From: an uncultured Acidobacteriota bacterium
GTDB taxonomy: Bacteria; Acidobacteriota; Blastocatellia; Pyrinomonadales; Pyrinomonadaceae
Length of the DNA stretch: 14,198 nt
Direction of reading: 5' to 3'
Assembly: GCA_946480545.1 (NCBI GenBank)
Contig: CAMLKY010000006.1
Coordinates: forward strand, 1 to 14,198
A model generated the notes under the pieces. That model was not told where the DNA came from and did not search any database. It saw nothing but the letters and a program-made list of their open reading frames with translations. Position 1 is the first letter of the stretch. Each line of letters opens with the position of its first letter. This document shows, piece by piece, positions 1-14,198 of the stretch. A program made the position numbers and the translations under genes.

Positions 1-31
1 CACGCATGCGGTCCGTCCCGCTTCAGACCTA

Positions 32-1762
32 CTATGATCGCCCCGCTCCGTGGCCACGAGTTTCTGCGAAAACATTCTCAACATCGGCGAGATCGCTCGT
101 GATCCGCATCCTCGGCAGGCTGGTCAAAAAATCACGACCGTACGATTTTGTTCTAAGGCGTGGATCGAGGATAGCGATCACACCCCGGTCGGTCTTGCTT
201 CGGATAAGCCTGCCGATTCCCTGTTTCAGGGAGATCACCGCCTGCGGAACGCTGTAGTCGAAAAACGACCGGCCACCATTGTCTTCAATAAAACGCGAAC
301 GCGCGGCGACGATCGGGTCGGTAGGTACGGCGAACGGAAGCTTGTCGATGATCACGCACGAAAGCTGTTCGCCCTGCACGTCGATCCCCTGCCAGAAGCT
401 CGCAGTCGCGAACAACACTGCGTTGGGAGTCTCCCGAAACCTATCGAGCAATCCGCTCTTCGACATGGAGCCCTGAACGAAACATGGAAATCCTACTCGC
501 GACGAAACAAGCTCATACAACGCGTTCATCGAGGCATTGCTCGTGGCAAGCACGAACGCTCGTCCGTTAGTAACCTGCAGCAACTTCATTATCTCGCCCG
601 CCGCGAGCTGTGTGAATTCAGGCGTACGCGGGTCCGGCATCGATCTTGGAAGATAGAGTATCGCCTGTCGCTCATAATCGAACGACGAAGCGGCGTGCAG
701 GACGTTCGTCTTCGCGGTATCGAGCCCGAGTCGTTCGCGGACAAAGTTGAACGAGCCGCCGCTCGACAGCGTCGCGGATGTCAGCACACACGTCTCGACC
801 TTTTCGAAAAGCTTGCCGCGAAGAAGTTCAGAGACATCGACCGGCGACGCGCGCAGGAAGATCCCCTTGCCTCGACGCTCGAGCCAATAGACGTAATTGC
901 GTTCTGCCTGATGAACGACGAAATCCAGGTCGGCACGAGTTTGCTTCGTTCGGCGAACAAGGCTTTCCACCTCAGGTATCGTGTCGGAGAACGGGTCGAT
1001 CGCCGATATCAGTCGCGCAAGAACCTGGTCGAGCTCCTCATAAGCTTCGCCAAGCGGTGTCGCAGCGGTATCGCCGTTTCGCGTGCGATGCAGGAAGACA
1101 TCTTCAAGCAACGGGTAACGTCCATCGAAGCGTGCCTGTGTGAAACGCTGCCAGAATTGTTCGGCGAGTCCAATTATCTTCGCCGCGATCCGTGTCAGAT
1201 CACGCGTCACCACAGCATCGGTTATCGGCAGCGTGTCCGAGTCGCGAACCAACTCTTCGATCTGAAAGTTCGATACCTGTACGCCAAAGTAGTCTGCGGC
1301 GATGTCCTCGATCAGATGCGCCTCATCGAAGATCACGGCGGAGTAATCGGGAATTACACGGCCGAACTGATTTCCGCGAACGCTTAGATCGGCGAAGAAA
1401 AGATGATGATTTACGATAACGATGTCCGCATCCTCGGCACGGGCACGCATTCGTGTGATGAAGCACGGCTCGAAATCGGGACACTTCTGTCCCAAACAGA
1501 CTTCGCTTCTCGCGTTGATCCGGCTCCAGAATGAAATATCTTCAGGAAGATTCGTGAGCTCGCGCCGGTCGCCGATCTTTGTAACCTGCGACCACCGGCG
1601 AACGTCGTCAAAATGGTTCATCTCATCCAGGCCGTCAAGGATCGGCTGATTCTCAGCTTTCCCTATTCGGTAGAGACATGCATAATTCGAGCGTCCTTTC
1701 ATATAGGCCGCCGTGAATTTCTTTGGCAGGATCTTCTGCAGGAATGGAATGTCCTTTTCCAT
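32..1762 (-). CDS. dinG: DinG/YoaA-family (XPD-like) Fe-S DNA helicase, main body, lacking its N-terminus and P-loop in this frame
   Basis: This is the body of a superfamily 2 Fe-S DNA helicase (576 aa from the first ATG, stop TAG at 34-32). Seen: four cysteines placed like the 4Fe-4S ligands of DinG/XPD proteins (Cys29, Cys89, Cys94, Cys100), the Walker B box DEAH at residues 146-149 within VIFDEAHLIED, and motif VI QGIGRLIRS near residue 514. Family knowledge: such enzymes unwind DNA 5'-3' using ATP and act on R-loops or in damage repair. The ATG at 1762 is almost certainly not the native start: the frame stays open upstream to about 1855 and encodes LAYLIPAIAAALANKKR and then STGTKNLQEQL, both typical helicase sequence. 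The remaining N-terminus lies in another frame at 1856-2003. As written, the product lacks the Walker A loop and could not hydrolyse ATP. The assignment to the family is firm; DinG versus YoaA cannot be decided here. Confidence 0.92.
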   Translation of the reverse strand: MEKDIPFLQKILPKKFTAAYMKGRSNYACLYRIGKAENQPILDGLDEMNHFDDVRRWSQVTKIGDRRELTNLPEDISFWSRINARSEVCLGQKCPDFEPCFITRMRARAEDADIVIVNHHLFFADLSVRGNQFGRVIPDYSAVIFDEAHLIEDIAADYFGVQVSNFQIEELVRDSDTLPITDAVVTRDLTRIAAKIIGLAEQFWQRFTQARFDGRYPLLEDVFLHRTRNGDTAATPLGEAYEELDQVLARLISAIDPFSDTIPEVESLVRRTKQTRADLDFVVHQAERNYVYWLERRGKGIFLRASPVDVSELLRGKLFEKVETCVLTSATLSSGGSFNFVRERLGLDTAKTNVLHAASSFDYERQAILYLPRSMPDPRTPEFTQLAAGEIMKLLQVTNGRAFVLATSNASMNALYELVSSRVGFPCFVQGSMSKSGLLDRFRETPNAVLFATASFWQGIDVQGEQLSCVIIDKLPFAVPTDPIVAARSRFIEDNGGRSFFDYSVPQAVISLKQGIGRLIRSKTDRGVIAILDPRLRTKSYGRDFLTSLPRMRITSDLADVENVFAETRGHGAGRS

Positions 1763-1811
1763 TAATTGCTCCTGCAGGTTCTTGGTCCCGGTCGAGATGA
1801 CAACGCGCTTT

Positions 1812-2003
1812 TTATTCGCGAGCGCCGCAGCGATAGCGGGAATCAGGTATGCTAGCTTCTACGATGAGGTGCCGTTTTTCTTCGAACGCGCGGGTGATCG
1901 CTTCGGACATCTTGACCTGACCGTCGCGATACTCGTAGTTATCGTGGGCTTGAGCGACAAGACCGCCAGGCCCGAATACGGTTTGTAGGAGGTTTTTCTG
2001 CAT
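1812..2003 (-). pseudogene. N-terminal fragment of the same helicase, out of frame with the body
   Basis: This 63-codon frame starts at ATG 2003-2001 and reads MQKNLLQTVFGPGGLVAQ, followed by YEYRDGQVKMSEAI and HLIVEA. That is the usual beginning of DinG-like helicases: an FGPGG segment, a Q-motif-like YRxxQ, then the strand leading into Walker A. After HLIVEA the frame turns to nonsense (SIPDSRYRCGARE) and stops at 1812, while the correct continuation (LAYLIPAI) sits in another frame from base 1855. Together the two frames form a single gene spanning 2003-32, of roughly 670 codons if repaired, close to the usual family length. No clear Shine-Dalgarno sequence precedes 2003; the upstream DNA is AT-rich with a TGTAAA direct repeat at 2005-2010 and 2015-2020. 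The native start could lie slightly elsewhere. Confidence 0.85.
1852..1859 (-). other. Frameshift junction where the helicase Walker A (P-loop) codons are missing
   Basis: On the minus strand the bases GTAGAAGCTAGCATAC join VEA of one frame to LAY of another. Family members normally read VEA-GTGTGKT-LAY at this place. Restoring AGTGTGKT between GTAGAA and CTAGCATAC needs 24 bases, of which only one remains. The lesion therefore equals a 23-bp loss (length 2 mod 3), which removes exactly the ATP-binding loop and shifts the frame. In the body frame a TAG stop lies just upstream of the junction. The pre-deletion sequence is inferred from the family, not seen. Sequencing or assembly error is a real alternative. 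Confidence 0.8.
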
Positions 2004-2034
2004 TTGTAAATAAATGTAAACGTGGGTGATTCTT

Positions 2035-2063
2035 TTGACATCGAAAGCCCGATTTTGTTAAAA
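2035..2063 (+). promoter_or_regulatory. Candidate sigma-70-type promoter for protease A
   Basis: A perfect TTGACA (2035-2040) is followed after 17 bp by TTAAAA (2058-2063), a weak -10 match. A TTGAC-type -35 with the same 17-bp spacing occurs upstream of proteases B and C at comparable distances from their starts (252 bp here). That recurrence raises confidence slightly. No transcription data are available, and the -10 element is poor. Confidence 0.35.
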
Positions 2064-2263
2064 ACCCTTTTGCATGTTCGTTCAGAGGTTCCGTCGAATC
2101 CCAACCTTCTAGGGCTCTCTGACCAATCGACCTTTTTAATGTCTGGCTTCATAAATTGTAATTCTATTAGTTTCGCGTGTCGATTCTTCCCGCATCGGCA
2201 TTAACTCGTGCGCGGAGCCCGATCTATCGGCGTTCAGGCGGCATCCACTTCATTCATAAGCCA

Positions 2264-2279
2264 AAGCTTTAGGAGGGCT
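2264..2279 (+). promoter_or_regulatory. Extended Shine-Dalgarno leader of protease A
   Basis: AAGCTTTAGGAGGGCT lies with its AGGAGG core (2271-2276) 10 bp before ATG 2287 and fixes that start. The block AAGCT-(2-3 nt)-TAGGAGGGCT recurs before B, and in slightly altered form before C. Its conservation extends beyond the ribosome-binding core. Confidence 0.85.
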
Positions 2280-2286
2280 CTTTCAA

Positions 2287-5200
2287 ATGAAACCAAGCAA
2301 CCGAGGCGATGTCAGACGCCTATTGCTTACTCTTTTTGTACTTGCGGTCGTAACAGCGATCGTGATGCTTCCTACATTCCAATCATCCGCGAGCAGCAAC
2401 TCGTCGGGTGAGGGTCTCGTCGAACGCACGACCGTTCGTGAGCCGGGAATCGAAGACTTCGACATCCGCACGAGCAAAGCCGATGCGGGGACGATCATGG
2501 AATTTCGTTCAGCGGCCGGAAACGCGGCACGAGCGGCGGACCTGAGATCGAAATTTGTGGCTGCCGAGGCCGAGCTCCGGCAGAGCGTCCCGACATTAAA
2601 GATCGAATATAACCCGATCCCGATGATGCCCGAGCTGATCGCTCCGGACGTCGAGCAGGGTCGTGCCGTAATGACCGAACCGTCGAACGAAAAGCGCTCG
2701 ACGATCCTACGGAATTTTGCGAAAACGAATAGCGACCTGGTCGGTGTATCGGATGAGCAGATCGACCAATTGAAAGTCATGGCCGACTATGCGAACCCGG
2801 ACGGAAATCTGTCGTTTGCGTCGCTCGAGCAGTTCGTCGATGGCATTCCCGTATTTCGCGGCGAGATCAAGGCTGGGTTCACACGCAAGGGCGAGATGTT
2901 CCGAGTCGTGAACAACCTCGCGGCGGGTCTCGACTACGGCAGTCTCTCGAAGGAATTCGGAAACCCGGCGGACGCGGTCCGTATCGCCGCAGACAACGTC
3001 AAAGCCGAAGTCGATATGACGCTCAACAGGGCAGAGTCGACACAGGACAAGGCTGTCTTCGGAACCGGATACTATCCCGCAACCGCGAGCAAGTACTACT
3101 TCCCGATCGAACCCGGCTTGGCCCGTGCAGCCTGGTACGTCGTCGTTTGGAAACCGGTCAACGGCTATGAAATGTTGATCGACGCCGAGACGGGCAAAAT
3201 CCTCTGGCGTCAGAACATGGGTAAGGACCAGACGCAGGCCGCGACCTACAACGTCTGGAACAGTACCTCGAACGCCATGCTTTCGGCCGACAATCCGGCT
3301 CCGCTAACACCGGGCCCGGTCGATCCGACTCTCGGAACCCAGGGTGCCTTCCAGGCTCGCAATTCGGTCACGCTTATCGGAAACGAAGCACCGAATACAT
3401 TCAACAATAACGGCTGGATCAACGATGGTGACAACGCGACGGCGGGAAACAACGTGATCGCAGGTCTCGACCGCGGTAGCCCGAACGGCGTCGACGTTGC
3501 TGTCGCCGGCAGCGGTATGCGCGTATTTGATTATGCGACAGTAGTGCCGCCGCAGGACACGACCGGACAGCAGTATCCGCTGCCTACGGGTGAAGGGATC
3601 AATCCCTGCCAGGCAGCTCCGAACGCCACCGTGCTTGATTCGCAGAAGGCCGCTGTCGTTCAGATGTTCTACGTTGTGAACCGACTCCACGATGTTCTCT
3701 ATCGTCATGGTTTCGTTGAGCAGGCGAGGAACTTCCAGCTCGACAACTTCGGTCGCGGCGGAACCGGCAATGACCGCGTTCTCGCCGAGGGTCAGGACTG
3801 CTCGGGCGTCAACAACGCCAACTTCAACAGCACCTCGACGGACGGTACGACCGGTCGCATGCAGATGTACCTTTGGTCACCGCCGACACCCGACCGTGAC
3901 GGTACGATGGATGCTGAGATCATCATCCACGAGGTCGGCCACGGTGTCACCAACCGCCTTCACACCGGCGGTATCAGCGGCACGCAGGGCGGCCAAATGC
4001 ACGAGGGCAACGGTGACTTCATGGCCCACTTGCTCTTGAGCGAGTCGTCCGACCCGATCAACGGCACTTACACTTTGGGCGGTTACGCGACGCACAGTCT
4101 TCGTGCCGTCGCTCCGACCGGCAACTTCTACTACGGTATTCGACGTTTCCCGAAGGCGGTGATCGCTTTCACCGGCGGACCGTTGAATCGACCGCACAAC
4201 CCGCTGACCTACGCGGACATCGACTCGGCGCAGCACAATGTGACGAACGGAGCTTTCAATCCGGCGTTCACCGGCTCGGCAACAGCACCGCATGACGGCG
4301 GTGAAGTCTGGAGCAGCATGCTGTGGGAGGTTCGCTCACGACTCGTGAGCCGTCTCGGTCACACGGCCGGAACGTCGAAGATGCTCCAGCTCTTCCTCGA
4401 CGGCCAGAAAATGGCAGTGTCGACCTCGTCGATGCTCAATTCGCGTAATTCGATCCTCGCGGTGGCACAGGCCGCGGCAGTTTCGCCCGCGGACGGAGCT
4501 GACGTCGCCGACGTCTGGGCAGGCTTTGCAGCCCGCGGCATGGGCTTCGGCGCGGCAAACCCGACCGGCAATACGGTGGTCGAGAGCTTCGGTCTTCCGA
4601 ACCTCGTTCAGACACCCGCGTTTAGTGTTACCGATCCGAATGGTGACAACGACGGATTCCCGGAGCCGGGTGAACAGATCACGCTGAATGTTCCGCTCAC
4701 GAATAATACCGGCGGTGCGGCTACAGGCGTCACACTTCAGGTCGTCGGCGGTGGTTCTGCGAATTACGGCACCATCAACCATGGCCAGACGGTCGCCCAG
4801 TCGGTCACCTACACCGTTCCGGCAAATGCGGAATGCGGTTCGGTCCACACGCTGACACTGAACGTGAACAGCAGCCTCGGAGCGACAAGCTTCAACCGTG
4901 CGATCACACTTGGCGCACCGGTTGTAGCGTCGTCTGAGAACTTCGACAGCGTTACTGCCCCGGCCTTCCCGGCGGGTTGGACTGCTGCAACGGTCCAGAA
5001 CGGCATTAACTTTGTCACTACTACCAACAATGTCGATTCAGCACCGAACGCAGCGTTCGCGCTTGACCCGGCAACTGTGGGCGGCGGCACGAACCTGACG
5101 ACGCCTTCGGTGTCGATCACAAGTCCGAATGCGGCCATCGAGTTCCGTAACCGTTATGACACGGAACCGGGATGGGACGGCGGTGTTCTCGAGATCAGTA

Positions 5201-6324
5201 TCGCCGGCGGTGCTTTCACCGATATCATCACGGCCGGCGGCTCGTTCACACAGAACGGCTACACCGGTGTTCTCGGTGCGAACGGTGCCAACAACCCGCT
5301 TGCAGGACGCAACTCCTGGAACGGAAATTCGAATGGATACCTGACAACGATCATTCGGTTGCCGGCTTCGGCCAACAGCCAGAACGTTCAGTTCCGCTTC
5401 CGGTTTGGCGCCGACGACAACACGGTCGGCCAGGGACCGAATCCGGGCTGGTACATCGACAATGTTCGCATCATCGGCAGCTATAGCTGCACTGGCGGGC
5501 CGTCGGTTAGATCGAGAGCCGACTTCGACGGCGACGGCCGTACCGATATCTCGGTATTCCGTCCGTCGGAAGGCAACTGGTATCTGGATCGCTCGACCGC
5601 AGGTTTCAGCGTCGTTAACTGGGGACTTTCCAGCGACATCATCACACCTGGTGATTTCGACGGTGACAACAAAGCCGACACTGCGATCTTCAGACCGTCA
5701 TCGGGTACGTGGTGGATCCTTCGCTCTACGGGAGGCTTTACCTCGACCACGTTTGGCACCAATGGCGACATTCCTGTGGTCGGTGACTACAATGGCGACG
5801 GAACATCGGATGTAGCGGTTTTCCGCCCGTCCAATAGCACCTGGTACATTCAACCGACGGGTGGCGGACCTATCACCACGACGGTGTTCGGCACCACCGG
5901 CGATGTCCCGGTAAGGGGTGATTACGACGGTGACGGATCGACCGATATCGCGATCTATCGTTCCGGAGTTTGGTGGATCAGCAATAGCGGAGGCAGTGGT
6001 GTCACTACCACTACTTTCGGTCTTGGTACCGACAAGCCGGTGCCGGCCGACTATGACGGCGACAACAAAGACGACGTCGCAGTCTACAGGCCGAGTGATG
6101 GCGTCTGGTACATCCGCAGATCGACCAACGGTGGTGTCGACTTCGTTCCGTTCGGACTCGCAGCCGATATCCCGGCTCCGGGTGATTACGACGGTGACGG
6201 AAAAGACGATCAAGCCGTTTACCGAAATGGTGTGTGGTATCTCAATCGCTCGACCGCTGGCTTCTTCGCTACGTCGTTCGGATTGGCAAGTGATATCGCA
6301 GTACCGAGCAAGTACATTCCGTAG
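2287..6324 (+). CDS. Protease A: secreted M36 (fungalysin-type) zinc metallopeptidase with C-terminal FG-GAP/VCBS repeats
   Basis: This is a 1345-aa extracellular endopeptidase. Seen, in order: basic start and hydrophobic helix (about 12-28), a signal peptide or anchor; FTP propeptide around 135-225 (LSFASLEQF..GIPVFRGEIKAGF); PepSY-like segment to about 315; M36 catalytic domain about 319-772 with zinc ligands His548 and His552 and catalytic Glu549 in HEVGH, and third ligand Glu573; Ig-like domain about 775-880; jelly-roll or adhesin-like domain about 883-1066 ending GWYIDNVRI; six FG-GAP/VCBS-type repeats from 1078 to the end. Family knowledge: the propeptide inhibits and folds the enzyme and is then cleaved. 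Oddities: the third-ligand motif is HEGNGDF where B has GEGWGDF, and Cys441 and Cys505 are absent from B and C. It is the most diverged of the three. The start is set by the AGGAGG at 2271. An intrinsic terminator follows, suggesting a single-gene transcript. Confidence 0.95.
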   Translation: MKPSNRGDVRRLLLTLFVLAVVTAIVMLPTFQSSASSNSSGEGLVERTTVREPGIEDFDIRTSKADAGTIMEFRSAAGNAARAADLRSKFVAAEAELRQSVPTLKIEYNPIPMMPELIAPDVEQGRAVMTEPSNEKRSTILRNFAKTNSDLVGVSDEQIDQLKVMADYANPDGNLSFASLEQFVDGIPVFRGEIKAGFTRKGEMFRVVNNLAAGLDYGSLSKEFGNPADAVRIAADNVKAEVDMTLNRAESTQDKAVFGTGYYPATASKYYFPIEPGLARAAWYVVVWKPVNGYEMLIDAETGKILWRQNMGKDQTQAATYNVWNSTSNAMLSADNPAPLTPGPVDPTLGTQGAFQARNSVTLIGNEAPNTFNNNGWINDGDNATAGNNVIAGLDRGSPNGVDVAVAGSGMRVFDYATVVPPQDTTGQQYPLPTGEGINPCQAAPNATVLDSQKAAVVQMFYVVNRLHDVLYRHGFVEQARNFQLDNFGRGGTGNDRVLAEGQDCSGVNNANFNSTSTDGTTGRMQMYLWSPPTPDRDGTMDAEIIIHEVGHGVTNRLHTGGISGTQGGQMHEGNGDFMAHLLLSESSDPINGTYTLGGYATHSLRAVAPTGNFYYGIRRFPKAVIAFTGGPLNRPHNPLTYADIDSAQHNVTNGAFNPAFTGSATAPHDGGEVWSSMLWEVRSRLVSRLGHTAGTSKMLQLFLDGQKMAVSTSSMLNSRNSILAVAQAAAVSPADGADVADVWAGFAARGMGFGAANPTGNTVVESFGLPNLVQTPAFSVTDPNGDNDGFPEPGEQITLNVPLTNNTGGAATGVTLQVVGGGSANYGTINHGQTVAQSVTYTVPANAECGSVHTLTLNVNSSLGATSFNRAITLGAPVVASSENFDSVTAPAFPAGWTAATVQNGINFVTTTNNVDSAPNAAFALDPATVGGGTNLTTPSVSITSPNAAIEFRNRYDTEPGWDGGVLEISIAGGAFTDIITAGGSFTQNGYTGVLGANGANNPLAGRNSWNGNSNGYLTTIIRLPASANSQNVQFRFRFGADDNTVGQGPNPGWYIDNVRIIGSYSCTGGPSVRSRADFDGDGRTDISVFRPSEGNWYLDRSTAGFSVVNWGLSSDIITPGDFDGDNKADTAIFRPSSGTWWILRSTGGFTSTTFGTNGDIPVVGDYNGDGTSDVAVFRPSNSTWYIQPTGGGPITTTVFGTTGDVPVRGDYDGDGSTDIAIYRSGVWWISNSGGSGVTTTTFGLGTDKPVPADYDGDNKDDVAVYRPSDGVWYIRRSTNGGVDFVPFGLAADIPAPGDYDGDGKDDQAVYRNGVWYLNRSTAGFFATSFGLASDIAVPSKYIP
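5505..6321 (+). repeat. Six FG-GAP/VCBS-like repeats at the C-terminus of protease A
   Basis: DxDGDGxxD-type loops begin at residues 1079, 1123, 1167, 1212, 1255 and 1300 (spacing 43-45). Each is followed by an (A/S)(V/I)(F/Y)R segment, a W(Y/W) strand and an FG..(S/G)D turn. The Asp-rich loops resemble calcium sites. A half repeat ending VPSKYIP closes the protein. A beta-propeller is likely by family resemblance, but blade number is an inference. The DNA itself is diverged between repeats. Confidence 0.88.
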
Positions 6325-6348
6325 CATTGGCTCCGGACTGGAAATGCG

Positions 6349-6380
6349 AAAGGCGGGGTCTCCACCCCGCCTTTTCTTTT
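6349..6380 (+). terminator. Intrinsic terminator after protease A
   Basis: An 11-bp perfect stem (AAAGGCGGGGT at 6349-6359 with ACCCCGCCTTT at 6364-6374) with a 4-nt loop is followed by TCTTTT. It lies 24 bp after the stop codon. G+C-rich stem and T tract make this a strong Rho-independent terminator, separating A from B. Confidence 0.92.
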
Positions 6381-6431
6381 ACATCGGACAACCCACGCTC
6401 ATCCGTTTGCTTTACGTTGCCTGTCCCCGCG

Positions 6432-6484
6432 TTGACCTTTCCCGGCATTTCTGTTATCACTTATCTACATTTTTTCATTCCGGA
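6432..6484 (+). promoter_or_regulatory. Candidate promoter and conserved downstream block for protease B
   Basis: TTGACC (6432-6437), a 17-bp gap and TATCAC (6455-6460) are followed by TTATCTACAT at 6461. In the B-C spacer TTGACG at 10878 has TTACCTACAC beginning at the same distance, 29 bp from the first T of the -35. The shared sequence continues through a T run to a CAYTCCG string with a one-base gap. Equal spacing in otherwise diverged spacers argues for function. The -10 assignment is uncertain. Confidence 0.45.
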
Positions 6485-6682
6485 AGGTTGTTCCGATCGA
6501 ACGAATCTTCCTATTCCAAGGGTCCGTCACCAATAAAGTTCATAACTAACTAATCTCCCCGTGGTCATTTTATTCGCATCATTTTGTTCGCGCGTCCTTT
6601 TATAACTTCCTTCGACTTGCGTCCTTATTCTTTAAGGTAATCGACGTTGCTGTCCCCTCAGGCAGCAGCATTTTTTCGTTCT

Positions 6683-6699
6683 AAGCTATTAGGAGGGCT
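6683..6699 (+). promoter_or_regulatory. Extended Shine-Dalgarno leader of protease B
   Basis: AAGCTATTAGGAGGGCT places AGGAGG (6691-6696) 8 bp before ATG 6705. It is nearly the same sequence as the leader of protease A and supports this start. Confidence 0.85.
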
Positions 6700-6704
6700 T
6701 TTAA

Positions 6705-9700
6705 ATGCAGAACAGTTCGTTAACGGAGACTCGACGGGGTCTTCTTCTGACTTTATTTCTACTGGGCCTGGTGACGGCGCTGATCTTCATTCCGTCCCAG
6801 CACCCGTCCGAAGCCGGCAGCAAATCCGGCTCGGGATTATTTACTCGGACCACGGTGCAGGACCCCGACCTGCCGAATTATGACATTCGGACAGAGAAGG
6901 GTGACGACATCGCGTCTTACCTCGCCTCGGCGCGTCAGTCCGCCGCTAGAGACGCTGCAGTGGTCGCCGATATCCGCGACGGCTTTGTCAAAGGAGAAAA
7001 CGCTCTGCGAACGCGGTTCCCCGATGTAAAATTCGTCTACAACGACGATATCCGCATTCCGGAAGTGATCGCTCCAGACGTATGGAAAGCCACTGTTGAA
7101 TACCTCACAGGACCCTCGACGGCGAAGCGCTCCGAGATCCTTCGTGACTTTGTTCGCGAGAACAATGATCTGGTCGGTATGACCGATGGTCAGGCCGACT
7201 CGCTGAAGGTGACGGCCGATTACACGAACCCGGACGGCAATCTCTCGTTCGCTCATCTCGAGCAGCGGATCAACGGCGTACCGGTGTTCCGTGGAGAAGT
7301 GAAAGCCGGCTTTACGAAGCGAGGAGAGATGATCCGCGTGATCAACAATCTCGCACCGGGTCTTGATTACGATTCGCTTTCTACGGACTTCCGCGATCCG
7401 GTCGATGCACTCAGGGCCGCGGCACGTCACGTCGGTCACGAGCTGAAAGATGCAGACACGGCCGTCAACGAAGCAGCCTCGAGCGATACGAAGATCAAGT
7501 TCGGTCAGGGCGGCGACTTTGCGAACCACGCCGAGAAGATGTACTTCCCGACCGAGCCGGGCGTTGCAGTTCCGGCATGGCGGGTGGCGGTGTTCACGAA
7601 GGGCACGGCGTACTACGTGATCGTTGACGCGAACACTGGAACGATGCTGTGGAGAAAGAACCTTGGTGAAGACCAGACGCAGGCGGCGACGTACAACGTT
7701 TACGCGAACCCGAATGCGTTCATCAACACGGCCGACAACCCGGCACCTCTTACACCCGGACCGACGGACCCGAGCACCAACACGCAAGGGACGCTGGCGA
7801 CGCGAACGAATGTTACGCGTATCGGTAACGAGGCTCCGTACACATTCAACAACAACGGCTGGATCACCGACGGTGCGAACATCACCGACGGTAATGCCGT
7901 CGAAGCAGGTATCGACCGCGTCGCACCGGACGGCGTCGATGCGACGCAGGTAGGAAGCCCGAACCGTGTATTCGACACGGCAGGCCCGGCATGGAATCCT
8001 CCTCCTGGAAACCCGGCACCCGGCGACGAGCCGCTCACGCCGCAGGCTCAGCGCGGAGCCGTGATCCAGATGTTCTACATAATGAACCTGTATCACGACG
8101 AGCTGTACAGACTCGGGTTCACCGAGCCGGCATTCAACTTCCAGCACGACAACTTTGGTCGCGGCGGTGTCGCAAACGACCGTGTCTCGGCTGAAGGTCA
8201 GGATGGATCGGGTACGAACAACGCAAACTTCCTGACGCTTGCCGACGGCAACCGGGGAAGGATGCAGATGTATCTCTGGAGCGGTCCTACGCCCGACAAG
8301 GACGGAACACCCGACGCCGAGATCATCATCCACGAAGTAACACACGGAACGTCGAACCGCCTGCACGGAAACGCATCGGGTCTTTCGACGAACATGGCCC
8401 GCGGCATGGGTGAAGGCTGGGGCGACTTCTACGGTCACGCCATGCTGTCAGAGCCGACGGATCCGATCAACGGCATCTACACGACGGGTGGTTATGCCAC
8501 GCACCAGCTCGGCGGCTTCAACGCGAACTACTACTACGGTATTCGCCGATGGCCGAAGGCTGTTATCGCGTTCACGGGCGGACCGAACAACCGTCCGCAC
8601 AATCCGTTCACGTTCAAGCACATCAATGTCGGCTGCGACACGACGCTTGGAACGACAACGACAGCACCGAGCAGTGCATTCCCGCGCAGCCCGGTCATTG
8701 CGACTGCAGGAAGCTGCGACCAGGTACACAACGCAGGTGAAGTATGGTCGAGTGCTCTGTGGGAAGTTCGTGCATTGATGGTCCAGCGCCTCGGCTGGGC
8801 AGTAGGAAACCGCAAGGTCCTGCAGCTTGTTACCGACGGTATGAAGCTGGCACCTATCGGCCCGACGTTCCTCACCGAGCGTGATGCGATCATCGCAGCG
8901 GCCCAGGCAAGTGCGGCGGCCCCGGAAGCAGCAGCAGATGTGATCGACGTTCGCGAAGGCTTCCGCCGACGCGGCATGGGCTTCTCGGCATCGATCCAGG
9001 CAGTTTCGCCTGCCGCGGTGACAGAGGCTTTCGATGTTCCCAACGTCGTCTTTACTGACCCCTTCTCGGTGAGCGATTCGACGGGTGACAACGATGGCTT
9101 CCCAGAGCCGGGTGAAAATATCCTGCTCAGCGTTGCTATCACGAACACCACCGGCGCGACCGTAACGAATGTCATGGCCAATGTTACCGGTGGCGGAAAC
9201 GCCAACTACGGCGACATCGCAAACGGTGCAACTGTGACGATGCAGATCCCGTACACCGTGCCGGGCGGCGCTACTTGCGGAGCCCTGCACCAGGTAACGA
9301 TCAACATCACCAGCTCCGTGGGCGCTCAAATACCGCAGACCCGTGAGTTCCGTCTCGGTGCTCCGGTTGGCGGCGCGCCTACGACATTCACTAACTCGAC
9401 GGCGATAACGATCGGTCCGAACGCCGGCGTTTCGGTTCCCTATGGAACTACGCTGAATGTTTCGGGTCTATCCGGCAACAAGACGATCAAGCTCGAACTC
9501 ACGAACGTGACACACACGTTCCCGGGTGATCTTGATCTGTTGTTGGTCGGCCCAGGCGGACAGAAATTCGTCGTACTGTCGGATGCAGGAAGCACTCAGG
9601 ACGCTGTCAACGCGACCACGCTTCTGTTCGATGCGGCCGCGGCGGTCATTCCGTCAGGAAGTGCGTCGATCGACGGCAGCTTCAGACCGACCCAGCACGG

Positions 9701-10754
9701 TAATGGTGACGCCTTTGCAGCACCGGCTCCGGCTGGACCGCACGATAACCCGGCTCCGGGTGGCACGGCGACGTTCTCGTCTGTCTTCGGTTCGAGTGGT
9801 GCGAGTATGAACGGAACCTGGACGCTCTATGTCGTCGACGATGCTAACGTCGACGGTGGAACGATGGCCGGCTGGAAGCTGACGTTTGAAGCGAATGACT
9901 ACGTCTGCGACCTGACCCCGACAAGCGTTCGATCGAGAGCTGACTTCGACGGCGATGGCAAGACCGATCTTTCGGTGTTCCGTCCGTCCGAAGGAAACTG
10001 GTACCTGAACCGTTCGACGGCAGGCTTCCAGGTCCTGAAGTGGGGCGTTTCGGGCGACACGCTCGTACCGGGCGATTACGATGGTGACGGTAAGACCGAT
10101 ACCGCCGTGTTCCGTCCGAACGCAGATCCGGCTCAGCCTGACTTCTACGTCCTGAACAGCAATGGAATGACGCTATACGGTGCATCGTGGGGTGTCGCGA
10201 ACGACGTTCCGGTGGTCGCGGATTACGACAATGACAATAAGTCAGACGTCGCGATCTTCCGTCCGTCGAACAACACGTGGTACATCCTGCGAAGCAGCGG
10301 CGGCATTGCGGTGACGGCGTTCGGCCAAGCCGGTGACGTACCTGTCGCAGGTAACTTCGACAGCCACGCGGCAGCCGACCTGGTCGTCTATCGCAATGGT
10401 ACGTGGCTCGGTCAGATGTCCGGCGGTGGTGCGTTCAACGTAGCCCTCGGAACTGCAGGCGACATCCTGGTACCCGCTGACTATAGCGGTGACAACGTTG
10501 ATGACGTTGCGGTGTTCAGACCATCGACGGGCCAGTGGTTCGTTCGCAACAGCACAGGCGGTGCGGTCACGACCACGGCTTGGGGTACATCGGGAGACGT
10601 GCCCGTACCGGGCGACTACGACGGCGATGGAAGTGACGATCTCGCTATCTATCGCGGCGGTACGTGGTGGGTCAATCGCTCGACCTCCGGTGTCTTGGTC
10701 CAGGGCTTCGGTCTTGGCAGTGACACGGCTGTGCCGAGACGTTACATCCCGTAA
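6705..10754 (+). CDS. Protease B: secreted M36 metallopeptidase with P-like domain and FG-GAP/VCBS repeats
   Basis: This is a 1349-aa paralogue of protease A. Seen: signal or anchor helix about 13-30 after an ETRR n-region; FTP propeptide about 135-225 (ADYTNPDGNLSFAHLEQ.., GVPVFRGEVKAGF); PepSY-like segment; M36 domain with HEVTH giving His543, Glu544 and His547, and Glu570 in GEGWGDF, the canonical form; Cys644 and Cys671 in a loop absent from A, a possible disulphide; Ig-like domain (Cys858); a domain of about 893-1066 resembling the proprotein-convertase P domain (THTFPGDLDLLLVGPGG near its start, NGTWTLYVVDDA near its end); Cys1068; six FG-GAP/VCBS-type repeats from about 1079. Role: secreted protein degradation, inferred. 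Codons 132 to at least 1051 are identical at DNA level to protease C, whereas the first 131 are not. The gene has its own candidate promoter and is followed by two hairpins. Confidence 0.96.
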   Translation: MQNSSLTETRRGLLLTLFLLGLVTALIFIPSQHPSEAGSKSGSGLFTRTTVQDPDLPNYDIRTEKGDDIASYLASARQSAARDAAVVADIRDGFVKGENALRTRFPDVKFVYNDDIRIPEVIAPDVWKATVEYLTGPSTAKRSEILRDFVRENNDLVGMTDGQADSLKVTADYTNPDGNLSFAHLEQRINGVPVFRGEVKAGFTKRGEMIRVINNLAPGLDYDSLSTDFRDPVDALRAAARHVGHELKDADTAVNEAASSDTKIKFGQGGDFANHAEKMYFPTEPGVAVPAWRVAVFTKGTAYYVIVDANTGTMLWRKNLGEDQTQAATYNVYANPNAFINTADNPAPLTPGPTDPSTNTQGTLATRTNVTRIGNEAPYTFNNNGWITDGANITDGNAVEAGIDRVAPDGVDATQVGSPNRVFDTAGPAWNPPPGNPAPGDEPLTPQAQRGAVIQMFYIMNLYHDELYRLGFTEPAFNFQHDNFGRGGVANDRVSAEGQDGSGTNNANFLTLADGNRGRMQMYLWSGPTPDKDGTPDAEIIIHEVTHGTSNRLHGNASGLSTNMARGMGEGWGDFYGHAMLSEPTDPINGIYTTGGYATHQLGGFNANYYYGIRRWPKAVIAFTGGPNNRPHNPFTFKHINVGCDTTLGTTTTAPSSAFPRSPVIATAGSCDQVHNAGEVWSSALWEVRALMVQRLGWAVGNRKVLQLVTDGMKLAPIGPTFLTERDAIIAAAQASAAAPEAAADVIDVREGFRRRGMGFSASIQAVSPAAVTEAFDVPNVVFTDPFSVSDSTGDNDGFPEPGENILLSVAITNTTGATVTNVMANVTGGGNANYGDIANGATVTMQIPYTVPGGATCGALHQVTINITSSVGAQIPQTREFRLGAPVGGAPTTFTNSTAITIGPNAGVSVPYGTTLNVSGLSGNKTIKLELTNVTHTFPGDLDLLLVGPGGQKFVVLSDAGSTQDAVNATTLLFDAAAAVIPSGSASIDGSFRPTQHGNGDAFAAPAPAGPHDNPAPGGTATFSSVFGSSGASMNGTWTLYVVDDANVDGGTMAGWKLTFEANDYVCDLTPTSVRSRADFDGDGKTDLSVFRPSEGNWYLNRSTAGFQVLKWGVSGDTLVPGDYDGDGKTDTAVFRPNADPAQPDFYVLNSNGMTLYGASWGVANDVPVVADYDNDNKSDVAIFRPSNNTWYILRSSGGIAVTAFGQAGDVPVAGNFDSHAAADLVVYRNGTWLGQMSGGGAFNVALGTAGDILVPADYSGDNVDDVAVFRPSTGQWFVRNSTGGAVTTTAWGTSGDVPVPGDYDGDGSDDLAIYRGGTWWVNRSTSGVLVQGFGLGSDTAVPRRYIP
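7098..9858 (+). repeat. Perfect long direct repeat, copy 1 (inside protease B)
   Basis: This segment matches 11438-14198 with a constant offset of 4340 bp. Aligning the two copies by eye I found no mismatch or gap over 2761 bp. Just upstream of 7098 the similarity drops at once: the ten bases ending at 7100 are CACTGTTGAA here and AAGGATGGAA in copy 2. The right end is not defined because copy 2 reaches the window edge. Confidence 0.96.
9924..10751 (+). repeat. Six FG-GAP/VCBS-like repeats at the C-terminus of protease B
   Basis: The first Asp-rich loop (DFDGDGKTD) starts at residue 1080 and the sixth (DYDGDGSDD) at 1304, with a closing half repeat ending VPRRYIP. The fourth repeat reads NFDSHAAAD and has lost most acidic positions, so it probably does not bind calcium; the third (DYDNDNKSD) is also altered. 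The layout matches protease A, with six repeats in each. Confidence 0.88.
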
Positions 10755-10769
10755 ACAAATAGCTCACGC

Positions 10770-10797
10770 GGAGCGGCTGCGACATCGGAGCCGCTCC
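10770..10797 (+). terminator. First hairpin after protease B
   Basis: A 9-bp stem (GGAGCGGCT at 10770-10778 with AGCCGCTCC at 10789-10797) and a 10-nt loop are followed by CATTTCTT, a poor T tract. It lies 15 bp after the stop. It could be a weak terminator or a protective 3' stem ahead of the stronger hairpin. Confidence 0.6.
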
Positions 10798-10806
10798 CAT
10801 TTCTTG

Positions 10807-10835
10807 AAGGTCGTCCCAGCAGGACGACCTTTTTT
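10807..10835 (+). terminator. Intrinsic terminator after protease B
   Basis: A 10-bp perfect stem (AAGGTCGTCC at 10807-10816 with GGACGACCTT at 10822-10831), a 5-nt loop and an uninterrupted T run to 10835 form a typical Rho-independent terminator. It separates B from C. Confidence 0.9.
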
Positions 10836-10877
10836 AGCGCCGAGCGGGTCACCTTGACCGGCGTTCCGGTTAAAGCA

Positions 10878-10926
10878 TTGACGTTCAGCAAAGGTTCGGT
10901 TAATAATTACCTACACTTTTCACTCC
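10878..10926 (+). promoter_or_regulatory. Candidate promoter and conserved downstream block for protease C
   Basis: TTGACG (10878-10883) is followed after 17 bp by TAATAA, or after 18 bp by AATAAT, a 5/6 match to the -10 consensus. The block TTACCTACAC at 10907, a T run and CACTCCG follow, at the same distance as in the A-B spacer. It lies 173 bp upstream of the C start. Confidence 0.45.
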
Positions 10927-11026
10927 GACCGTAATTTCCAAGGGTTTGTTCTTTAGATTTCCCCCACATTCGATATAACTAGTCGTGCGTGGGTCTCAAG
11001 CTTTGACGGTCGTTTTGTATCTTCGA

Positions 11027-11046
11027 GAGCTTCTAGGAGGAGGGCT
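11027..11046 (+). promoter_or_regulatory. Extended Shine-Dalgarno leader of protease C
   Basis: GAGCTTCT followed by AGGAGGAGGGCT lies just before ATG 11051. Compared with A and B there is an extra AGG triplet, giving two overlapping purine cores. It supports the chosen start. Confidence 0.85.
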
Positions 11047-11050
11047 TATA

Positions 11051-14000
11051 ATGCAGCACAGTTCTTTTCGTGAAACCCGTCTTGGGTTTCTCTTGACCTT
11101 GTTTATCCTATGCGTCGTCACGGCGCTGATCCTCATCCCCGCCCAATTCAGTTCCAAGGCCGGTACCGGTCGCGGACTGATCGTGCGAACCAGTACGCAC
11201 GATGACGGGCTACTGAACTACGATATCCGAGAACAAAGAGAGCCTGAGATTCTCAGCTTCCTTGAAGCAGCTCGGGCGTCCGTCGGGCAGGACGCCGGCG
11301 CGGTAGCTGACAAGCGCGATGCATTCGTACGCGGCGAAGAGCAGCTTCGGTCCCGCGTCCCCACCATCAAGTTCGAGTACAACTCAGACATACGGATACC
11401 CGAGGTCATTTCGCCGGACGTATGGAAGGCAAGGATGGAATACCTCACAGGACCCTCGACGGCGAAGCGCTCCGAGATCCTTCGTGACTTTGTTCGCGAG
11501 AACAATGATCTGGTCGGTATGACCGATGGTCAGGCCGACTCGCTGAAGGTGACGGCCGATTACACGAACCCGGACGGCAATCTCTCGTTCGCTCATCTCG
11601 AGCAGCGGATCAACGGCGTACCGGTGTTCCGTGGAGAAGTGAAAGCCGGCTTTACGAAGCGAGGAGAGATGATCCGCGTGATCAACAATCTCGCACCGGG
11701 TCTTGATTACGATTCGCTTTCTACGGACTTCCGCGATCCGGTCGATGCACTCAGGGCCGCGGCACGTCACGTCGGTCACGAGCTGAAAGATGCAGACACG
11801 GCCGTCAACGAAGCAGCCTCGAGCGATACGAAGATCAAGTTCGGTCAGGGCGGCGACTTTGCGAACCACGCCGAGAAGATGTACTTCCCGACCGAGCCGG
11901 GCGTTGCAGTTCCGGCATGGCGGGTGGCGGTGTTCACGAAGGGCACGGCGTACTACGTGATCGTTGACGCGAACACTGGAACGATGCTGTGGAGAAAGAA
12001 CCTTGGTGAAGACCAGACGCAGGCGGCGACGTACAACGTTTACGCGAACCCGAATGCGTTCATCAACACGGCCGACAACCCGGCACCTCTTACACCCGGA
12101 CCGACGGACCCGAGCACCAACACGCAAGGGACGCTGGCGACGCGAACGAATGTTACGCGTATCGGTAACGAGGCTCCGTACACATTCAACAACAACGGCT
12201 GGATCACCGACGGTGCGAACATCACCGACGGTAATGCCGTCGAAGCAGGTATCGACCGCGTCGCACCGGACGGCGTCGATGCGACGCAGGTAGGAAGCCC
12301 GAACCGTGTATTCGACACGGCAGGCCCGGCATGGAATCCTCCTCCTGGAAACCCGGCACCCGGCGACGAGCCGCTCACGCCGCAGGCTCAGCGCGGAGCC
12401 GTGATCCAGATGTTCTACATAATGAACCTGTATCACGACGAGCTGTACAGACTCGGGTTCACCGAGCCGGCATTCAACTTCCAGCACGACAACTTTGGTC
12501 GCGGCGGTGTCGCAAACGACCGTGTCTCGGCTGAAGGTCAGGATGGATCGGGTACGAACAACGCAAACTTCCTGACGCTTGCCGACGGCAACCGGGGAAG
12601 GATGCAGATGTATCTCTGGAGCGGTCCTACGCCCGACAAGGACGGAACACCCGACGCCGAGATCATCATCCACGAAGTAACACACGGAACGTCGAACCGC
12701 CTGCACGGAAACGCATCGGGTCTTTCGACGAACATGGCCCGCGGCATGGGTGAAGGCTGGGGCGACTTCTACGGTCACGCCATGCTGTCAGAGCCGACGG
12801 ATCCGATCAACGGCATCTACACGACGGGTGGTTATGCCACGCACCAGCTCGGCGGCTTCAACGCGAACTACTACTACGGTATTCGCCGATGGCCGAAGGC
12901 TGTTATCGCGTTCACGGGCGGACCGAACAACCGTCCGCACAATCCGTTCACGTTCAAGCACATCAATGTCGGCTGCGACACGACGCTTGGAACGACAACG
13001 ACAGCACCGAGCAGTGCATTCCCGCGCAGCCCGGTCATTGCGACTGCAGGAAGCTGCGACCAGGTACACAACGCAGGTGAAGTATGGTCGAGTGCTCTGT
13101 GGGAAGTTCGTGCATTGATGGTCCAGCGCCTCGGCTGGGCAGTAGGAAACCGCAAGGTCCTGCAGCTTGTTACCGACGGTATGAAGCTGGCACCTATCGG
13201 CCCGACGTTCCTCACCGAGCGTGATGCGATCATCGCAGCGGCCCAGGCAAGTGCGGCGGCCCCGGAAGCAGCAGCAGATGTGATCGACGTTCGCGAAGGC
13301 TTCCGCCGACGCGGCATGGGCTTCTCGGCATCGATCCAGGCAGTTTCGCCTGCCGCGGTGACAGAGGCTTTCGATGTTCCCAACGTCGTCTTTACTGACC
13401 CCTTCTCGGTGAGCGATTCGACGGGTGACAACGATGGCTTCCCAGAGCCGGGTGAAAATATCCTGCTCAGCGTTGCTATCACGAACACCACCGGCGCGAC
13501 CGTAACGAATGTCATGGCCAATGTTACCGGTGGCGGAAACGCCAACTACGGCGACATCGCAAACGGTGCAACTGTGACGATGCAGATCCCGTACACCGTG
13601 CCGGGCGGCGCTACTTGCGGAGCCCTGCACCAGGTAACGATCAACATCACCAGCTCCGTGGGCGCTCAAATACCGCAGACCCGTGAGTTCCGTCTCGGTG
13701 CTCCGGTTGGCGGCGCGCCTACGACATTCACTAACTCGACGGCGATAACGATCGGTCCGAACGCCGGCGTTTCGGTTCCCTATGGAACTACGCTGAATGT
13801 TTCGGGTCTATCCGGCAACAAGACGATCAAGCTCGAACTCACGAACGTGACACACACGTTCCCGGGTGATCTTGATCTGTTGTTGGTCGGCCCAGGCGGA
13901 CAGAAATTCGTCGTACTGTCGGATGCAGGAAGCACTCAGGACGCTGTCAACGCGACCACGCTTCTGTTCGATGCGGCCGCGGCGGTCATTCCGTCAGGAA

Positions 14001-14198
14001 GTGCGTCGATCGACGGCAGCTTCAGACCGACCCAGCACGGTAATGGTGACGCCTTTGCAGCACCGGCTCCGGCTGGACCGCACGATAACCCGGCTCCGGG
14101 TGGCACGGCGACGTTCTCGTCTGTCTTCGGTTCGAGTGGTGCGAGTATGAACGGAACCTGGACGCTCTATGTCGTCGACGATGCTAACGTCGACGGTG
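11051..14198 (+). CDS. Protease C: third secreted M36 metallopeptidase, cut by the window end
   Basis: 1049 codons are visible with no stop; the frame runs off the right edge. The start reads MQHSSFRETRLGFLLTLF, a signal or anchor with a hydrophobic helix to about residue 30. Codons 1-129 differ from B (roughly half the residues shared) but include the matching motifs YDIR, IKFEYN and RIPEV. From codon 130 onward the DNA is identical to B: FTP propeptide, PepSY-like segment, HEVTH with His541, Glu542 and His545, third ligand Glu568, Ig-like domain, and most of the P-like domain. If similarity continues, the gene would end near base 15094 after six FG-GAP-type repeats; that part is not visible. 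Role as for B. It has its own candidate promoter and Shine-Dalgarno leader, so an identical enzyme body may be made under separate control with a different leader. Confidence 0.94.
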   Translation, partial: MQHSSFRETRLGFLLTLFILCVVTALILIPAQFSSKAGTGRGLIVRTSTHDDGLLNYDIREQREPEILSFLEAARASVGQDAGAVADKRDAFVRGEEQLRSRVPTIKFEYNSDIRIPEVISPDVWKARMEYLTGPSTAKRSEILRDFVRENNDLVGMTDGQADSLKVTADYTNPDGNLSFAHLEQRINGVPVFRGEVKAGFTKRGEMIRVINNLAPGLDYDSLSTDFRDPVDALRAAARHVGHELKDADTAVNEAASSDTKIKFGQGGDFANHAEKMYFPTEPGVAVPAWRVAVFTKGTAYYVIVDANTGTMLWRKNLGEDQTQAATYNVYANPNAFINTADNPAPLTPGPTDPSTNTQGTLATRTNVTRIGNEAPYTFNNNGWITDGANITDGNAVEAGIDRVAPDGVDATQVGSPNRVFDTAGPAWNPPPGNPAPGDEPLTPQAQRGAVIQMFYIMNLYHDELYRLGFTEPAFNFQHDNFGRGGVANDRVSAEGQDGSGTNNANFLTLADGNRGRMQMYLWSGPTPDKDGTPDAEIIIHEVTHGTSNRLHGNASGLSTNMARGMGEGWGDFYGHAMLSEPTDPINGIYTTGGYATHQLGGFNANYYYGIRRWPKAVIAFTGGPNNRPHNPFTFKHINVGCDTTLGTTTTAPSSAFPRSPVIATAGSCDQVHNAGEVWSSALWEVRALMVQRLGWAVGNRKVLQLVTDGMKLAPIGPTFLTERDAIIAAAQASAAAPEAAADVIDVREGFRRRGMGFSASIQAVSPAAVTEAFDVPNVVFTDPFSVSDSTGDNDGFPEPGENILLSVAITNTTGATVTNVMANVTGGGNANYGDIANGATVTMQIPYTVPGGATCGALHQVTINITSSVGAQIPQTREFRLGAPVGGAPTTFTNSTAITIGPNAGVSVPYGTTLNVSGLSGNKTIKLELTNVTHTFPGDLDLLLVGPGGQKFVVLSDAGSTQDAVNATTLLFDAAAAVIPSGSASIDGSFRPTQHGNGDAFAAPAPAGPHDNPAPGGTATFSSVFGSSGASMNGTWTLYVVDDANVDG
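11438..14198 (+). repeat. Perfect long direct repeat, copy 2 (inside protease C)
   Basis: Identical to 7098-9858, same orientation and reading frame, and continuing to the last base of the window, so the true length is at least 2761 bp. Its left boundary is within a coding sequence, with no inverted repeats, target duplication or transposase at the edge. This points to homologous recombination, gene conversion or misassembly, not insertion of an element. Confidence 0.96.

Follow-up and report, generated by a model that had tools for sequence, protein, structure and literature searches.

Genes at the locus

The DNA analyzed here, further called the window, is a stretch of 14,198 nucleotides from an uncultured bacterium of the Pyrinomonadaceae (GenBank assembly GCA_946480545.1, contig CAMLKY010000006.1, positions 1 to 14,198). 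It carries part of a helicase gene and three genes, A, B and C, which are, judged by their translations, tandem M36 (fungalysin-type) metallopeptidase genes (Table 1). The scores with the Peptidase_M36 model (PF02128) are 252.9 bits for A, 267.6 for B and 268.1 for C, at a Pfam cut-off of 23.3, and the FTP propeptide motif was matched in all three. A P-domain was matched in B and C, and FG-GAP repeats in A and B, gene C being cut before its FG-GAP part. The zinc motif of Peptidase M36 is HEXXH; a candidate for this motif is found in the translations as HEVTH in B and C and as HEVGH in A. Relatives by sequence in the PDB are four distinct solved chains, named extracellular metalloproteinase (4k90, 7z6t, 7qfy, 7qp3). 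The M36 catalytic domain and the FTP motif are common to the window proteins and these fungalysin metallopeptidases, whereas the P-domain and FG-GAP repeats after the catalytic domain set the window proteins apart. Myxosortase-dependent M36 peptidases (NF038112) were considered and rejected, since A, B and C score 330.5 to 339.5 bits against an NCBIfam cut-off of 1500, and the models for rhombosortase- and T9SS-dependent M36 proteins were rejected likewise, with scores far under the cut-offs.

Table 1 Features of the window and near-identical FG-GAP modules of genome G022
Feature	Position	Strand	Remarks
DinG/YoaA-type helicase gene, C-terminal part	32..1762	-	N-terminal part (to about 2001) out of frame
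Gene A, M36 metallopeptidase with FG-GAP tail	2287..6324	+	not homogenized
Spacer A-B	6325..6704		380 bp; resembles spacer B-C at the ribosome-binding-site region only
Gene B, M36 metallopeptidase	6705..10754	+	FTP propeptide motif, M36, P-domain, FG-GAP; likely donor
5' part of B, 131 codons	6705..7097	+	signal peptide and propeptide start (by position); diverged from C
Homogenized block, copy in B	7098..9858	+	2761 bp, exact
Spacer B-C	10755..11050		296 bp; no copy of spacer A-B
Gene C, M36 metallopeptidase	11051..14198	+	truncated on its 3' side where the window stops; likely recipient
5' part of C, 129 codons	11051..11437	+	diverged from B
Homogenized block, copy in C	11438..14198	+	2761 bp, exact, up to the window's last base
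G022 FG-GAP modules, L081	11957-12825, 16054-16922
G022 FG-GAP module, L104	4353-5176
G022 FG-GAP module, L105	4309-5153
G022 FG-GAP module, L106	4249-5090
G022 FG-GAP module, L107	4695-5539

Among 78 loci from genome contigs, drawn from the best 80 matches, those nearest to the window belong to Pyrinomonadaceae and other acidobacterial MAGs. In many loci the order is helicase, M36, M36 and then a gene of about 500 codons; a part of this gene, about 270-290 residues long, is similar to A or B, and in genome G022 this part is an FG-GAP tail. Across 119 genomes from the family to which G001 belongs, the stretch 32-6324 has its closest DNA counterpart in G011, where the helicase part is 78% identical. 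Aligned with L012, the helicase gene of the window is without 23 bp across the Walker A region (an internal gap), and at window positions 1763-2001 of the minus strand the helicase is out of frame at this gap. The gene may be broken, the locus may vary between strains, or the assembly may be wrong here. Another protein, P0180, equals gene A (window 2287-5694) for 1136 residues, after which its frame changes (100% identity over 84%). It apparently comes from another assembly of the same organism, and its frame change, like the helicase gap, may be a real variant or an error.

An exact repeat in genes B and C

A preliminary description of the window had reported that B and C are identical over at least 2761 bp, silent positions included. 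An exact self-comparison of the window bears this out: at an offset of 4340, the genes share one single block of 2761 bp with 0 mismatches and 0 gaps, and the 919 codons of this body contain 0 changes at 683 synonymous sites. The tract measures at least 2761 bp, its right limit being the window's last base (14198), and its left edge, at 7098 in B and 11438 in C, is abrupt. Upstream of this edge the 5' coding ends, which had been called strongly diverged, are indeed only 59% identical at the nucleotide level over 129 aligned codons, with a pS of 0.83 (saturated) and a dN of 0.33. The low identity and the saturated silent sites mark these 5' parts as old paralogues. If the divergence of the bodies equalled that of the 5' parts, the probability of finding no difference at all in the body would be about 10^-634.

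The spacers had also been described as diverged, which agrees with the finding that spacers A-B and B-C, compared alone, have no match better than an E value of 0.16. When the first 60 coding bases are added, one 31-bp match appears, at the region of the ribosome-binding site and start, and the start region of C resembles that of B at the ribosome-binding site and signal peptide. Gene A escaped the homogenization, as the preliminary description stated: no exact run of more than 17 bp with B or C was found in codon alignments. Conversion involving A was ruled out, there being no long common run.

Tandem M36 genes in related genomes

For comparison, 30 adjacent same-strand M36 pairs were collected from 28 sources, i.e. 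27 loci of relatives (two in one genome) and the window. This set, composed of the best 80 matches and of tandem places picked among the matches listed, is a selection rather than a full census. Long tracts are rare in it (2 of the 30 pairs): L006 leads with an exact run of 4025 bp, followed by the window with 2761 bp and L001 with 86 bp, and no run exceeds 35 bp in the other 27 pairs. For L001, shuffling gave at most 35, against the 86 bp of the tract. The runs of up to 35 bp in other arrays are not taken for tracts, since the codon shuffle ignores co-located conserved motifs, which makes small p values too optimistic.

The 4025-bp exact block of L006, in the metagenome-assembled genome G006, is common to two adjacent M36 genes, and the sequence on either side of it has diverged. 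The sister genome G072 has the matching pair distributed over L089 and L008, two separate contigs, for which reason it is not counted among the 30 pairs. Relative to L006, the identity in G072 is 88% for the 3' end of the first copy and 96% for the spacer. In G072 the two bodies agree with each other at 75.4% over R 1-2269 and scarcely align over R 2270-3168 (42.6%). Over these two ranges the second copy of G072 is 96.1% and 91.2% identical to the L006 block, the first copy 74.9% and 43.7%. Since the block is thus like the second copy of G072 and unlike the first, the second body would most simply have replaced the first in G006. The pair of G072 itself reaches 95.8% identity over R 3169-3806, a separate tract in the 3' part. 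The strongest support for homogenization comes from these two genomes, G006 with its identical block of 4025 bp and its sister G072, which keeps the flanks while its bodies differ. Among the matches listed in a class-level M36 search (162 genomes, 113 of which matched), no neighbours other than those of G006 had scores equal to each other.

The G072 contigs end near 12585 in L089 and near 4964 in L008, within a stretch common to two M36 genes, and have an exact run of 125 bp at their ends. Assemblies break at such M36 repeats.

Probable donor and recipient

Along its whole length gene B resembles one orthologue, P0001: the N part is 89% identical, the M36 part 88% and the C-terminal part 83%. 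It thus looks native throughout, which makes it the likely donor. The N part of C is 60% identical to P0001, and no relative above 63% was found for it among 67 proteins retrieved by word search and 176 compared. Candidates for this search were chosen by shared 5-residue words, a non-exhaustive procedure that missed P0001 (60%), and with it no orthologue of C with an unconverted body was found. The best match of A is P0179, at 88%; P0179 and P0001 have the same source, with both contigs stated as 25864, and are probably located on one contig.

The tree of 57 N parts groups B and P0001 in a set of 10 rows, supported at 98/89, to which C does not belong; C is attached, weakly, to P0122 and P0124 (87/52). 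A quick body tree has B equal to C and joined to P0001 with an SH-aLRT of 100. Constraining B and C to one clade of the N-part tree has a cost of 39.8 log units. With a p-AU of 0.067 (131 columns) such a clade is not rejected, so that the placement of C's N part outside the clade of B is not significant, though the N-part and body trees differ. For wider groupings on the same 131 columns, p is 0.244 (B+C+P0001) and 0.241 (B+C+P0001+P0002). P0122 and P0124, whose N parts stand weakly with C (87/52), have their bodies on A's side of the tree; judging from these positions, they are possibly further mosaics.

Origin of the identical bodies

Silent-site identity that ends abruptly between paralogues diverged outside the tract is the pattern by which gene conversion is recognized, and it is found in B and C. 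A duplicated spacer, which gene conversion would not leave, is absent from spacers A-B and B-C, the region downstream of C lying outside the window. The 5' flank of the tract has diverged and its 3' edge is beyond the window; in L006, flanks have diverged on both sides. We consider it likely that a recent gene conversion without crossover put the body of B over the body of C in old tandem paralogues. B and C would be old tandem genes for secreted-type M36 metallopeptidases, of which at least 2761 bp of the B body would have been copied onto C by homologous recombination, recently and without crossover. Gene C would have retained its own promoter region, signal peptide and propeptide start, and would now code for the FTP motif, the M36 catalytic domain and the P-domain start of B. 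The remaining propeptide, the catalytic domain and what follows to the window end would thereby have been made the same, plausibly resulting in one mature protease produced from two differently controlled genes. The simplest account has the body copied from B onto C, with the 5' end of C spared. We infer the direction, from B to C, and the reach of the tract toward the 3' end of C; recombination enzymes, a trigger and any benefit would have to be assumed as well. Two findings support the proposal that the bodies were homogenized very recently: silent changes are absent although the flanks are saturated, and a like pattern recurs in relatives. Points that weigh against conversion are the end of the window within the repeat, the B+C clade left unrejected for the N part, the lack of an unconverted orthologue of C among the proteins retrieved, the rarity of long tracts (2 of 30 pairs), the origin of L006 from a metagenome-assembled genome, and the absence of dispersed identical tails in some of the relatives searched.

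The main competitor is an assembly artefact in which the body of B was run again after the 5' part of C, the true body of C being different or partly identical. The window stops within the repeat, a common place for contigs to break off when repeats are not resolved, the two G072 contigs likewise end inside a common stretch with their 125-bp exact run, and the frame change of P0180 and the broken helicase imply that assemblies here may hold errors or strain variants. However, a graph assembler should need junction reads, so that at least the start of the body would be shared. Moreover, L006 is built alike, and its diverged flanks reappear in the sister genome; in G022, homogenized modules occur on very long contigs. 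We regard an artefact as rather improbable, although it deserves more weight than the other alternatives to conversion. One of these is a recent tandem duplication of B, after which a foreign or paralogous piece took the place of the new copy's 5' end and spacer. It would suit an N part of C with relatives of at most 63%, the fact that the closest relative (the source of P0001 and P0179) gave no C in the search by shared 5-residue words, and a 3' end of C that lies beyond the window. Two events are required, however, the start of C is still like that of B at the ribosome-binding site and signal peptide, and the identical body of L006, diverged on both sides, fits conversion directly; this course of events is unlikely.

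The preliminary description had named gene conversion or unequal crossing-over as the mechanism, with an assembly copy as the alternative, and of the two mechanisms the former is favoured. Unequal crossing-over between neighbouring paralogues, giving a hybrid gene, is known to yield abrupt intragenic edges as well, but it should duplicate the spacer, and the spacers are unrelated. Since the spacers are not duplicated, both this mechanism and a fresh tandem duplication are disfavoured, and we give unequal crossing-over very little chance. Strong purifying selection on old paralogues has practically none: nothing speaks for it beyond the general conservation of catalytic domains, and as a cause of the B/C identity it is refuted by the silent sites, with 0 of 683 synonymous changes and saturation next door.

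Relation to known cases

Gene conversion between bacterial paralogues is already well known, and B and C, read as above, are a further example. None of the open-licence papers listed in the searches has, judged by titles and the beginnings of abstracts, their case as a subject. According to the available part of a study of tuf (EF-Tu) and other concertedly evolving prokaryotic genes, paralogues are homogenized by gene conversion (PMC6053082), at silent and other sites as in B and C. The cases outlined there are full-length and long-lasting and comprise 26 genes, mostly of important pathways, whereas the B/C tract lies within secreted-protease genes and spares the 5' end. Conversion between tandem duplicates, as proposed here, is also described in the accessible text on PE_PGRS17 and PE_PGRS18 of tubercle bacilli (PMC1762029). 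There, a 12-bp insertion and 40 SNPs move inside one species complex, in contrast to at least 2761 bp between strongly diverged paralogues. In Helicobacter pylori, alpA and related adhesins have conversion tracts in surface-protein genes, toward one end of the gene (PMC5971833). As far as that report's available text goes, conversion is held to create variants, whereas the protease bodies of B and C would have been made identical. Repeat-associated changes have, in the words available from a recent paper, been neglected owing to short reads (PMC12046097, 2025).

If real, B and C are a clean case in which a long tract was converted between neighbours that had strongly diverged, and the sister genomes G072 and G006 offer the unconverted and converted states for study. 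It also follows from such events that gene trees of these M36 proteases can mix histories.

Dispersed FG-GAP tails

An 869-bp module from the 3' end of an M36 gene in G022 occurs six times at 92-100% nucleotide identity, the copy of that gene counted (Table 1), and at six more places, each of at least 749 bp, with 72-77%. The contigs carrying it measure 2.77, 0.68 and 0.68 Mb, and the near-identical modules are up to more than 1 Mb apart. They form the ends of an M36 peptidase, a protein in which only FG-GAP was matched, an M64 peptidase, a subtilase, a DUF5122 beta-propeller protein and a MauG-type di-haem protein. In the sequence flanking the module, the five remaining copies agree with the M36 gene in 13-22 of 60 bases on the upstream side and in 16-35 of 60 on the downstream side. 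One gene, which resembles a polyphosphate kinase gene, lies between the M36 gene and the nearest copy of the module. The long contigs, which presumably come from long reads, make an assembly artefact less likely in G022.

These searches scored at most 40 candidates per genome. In G003 (query L003 17488-18318), nine further matches of at least 544 bp had 74-89% identity and others 67-72%, among the best 40 candidates. With one query tail and the best 40 candidates each, G056 had one tail match of 773 bp at 63%, the rest being at most 276 bp, and G069 had no tail match of more than 220 bp. In G006 and G072, a 4.6-kb query (block and 3' end) gave no long dispersed match of at least 85% outside the arrays among the best 40 candidates. 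Dispersed tails as a general feature were therefore dropped, as they are absent in some of the relatives searched.

The pair G006/G072 and the tails of G022 together indicate that homogenizing recombination recurs within the family, with long tracts being rare. We tentatively propose, at somewhat less than even chances, that in Pyrinomonadaceae-type acidobacteria the tandem and dispersed genes for secreted proteins constitute one recombining pool in which whole protease bodies of tandem arrays, and the FG-GAP C-terminal tails that otherwise unrelated proteins have in common along the chromosome, repeatedly overwrite one another. Each gene would keep its own promoter and export signal, concerted evolution would proceed by domain and not by gene, and the B/C pair of the window would be one snapshot of this process. 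The dispersed near-identical tails are a more unusual lead than the B/C pair, and those of G022 make domain-level concerted evolution directly testable.
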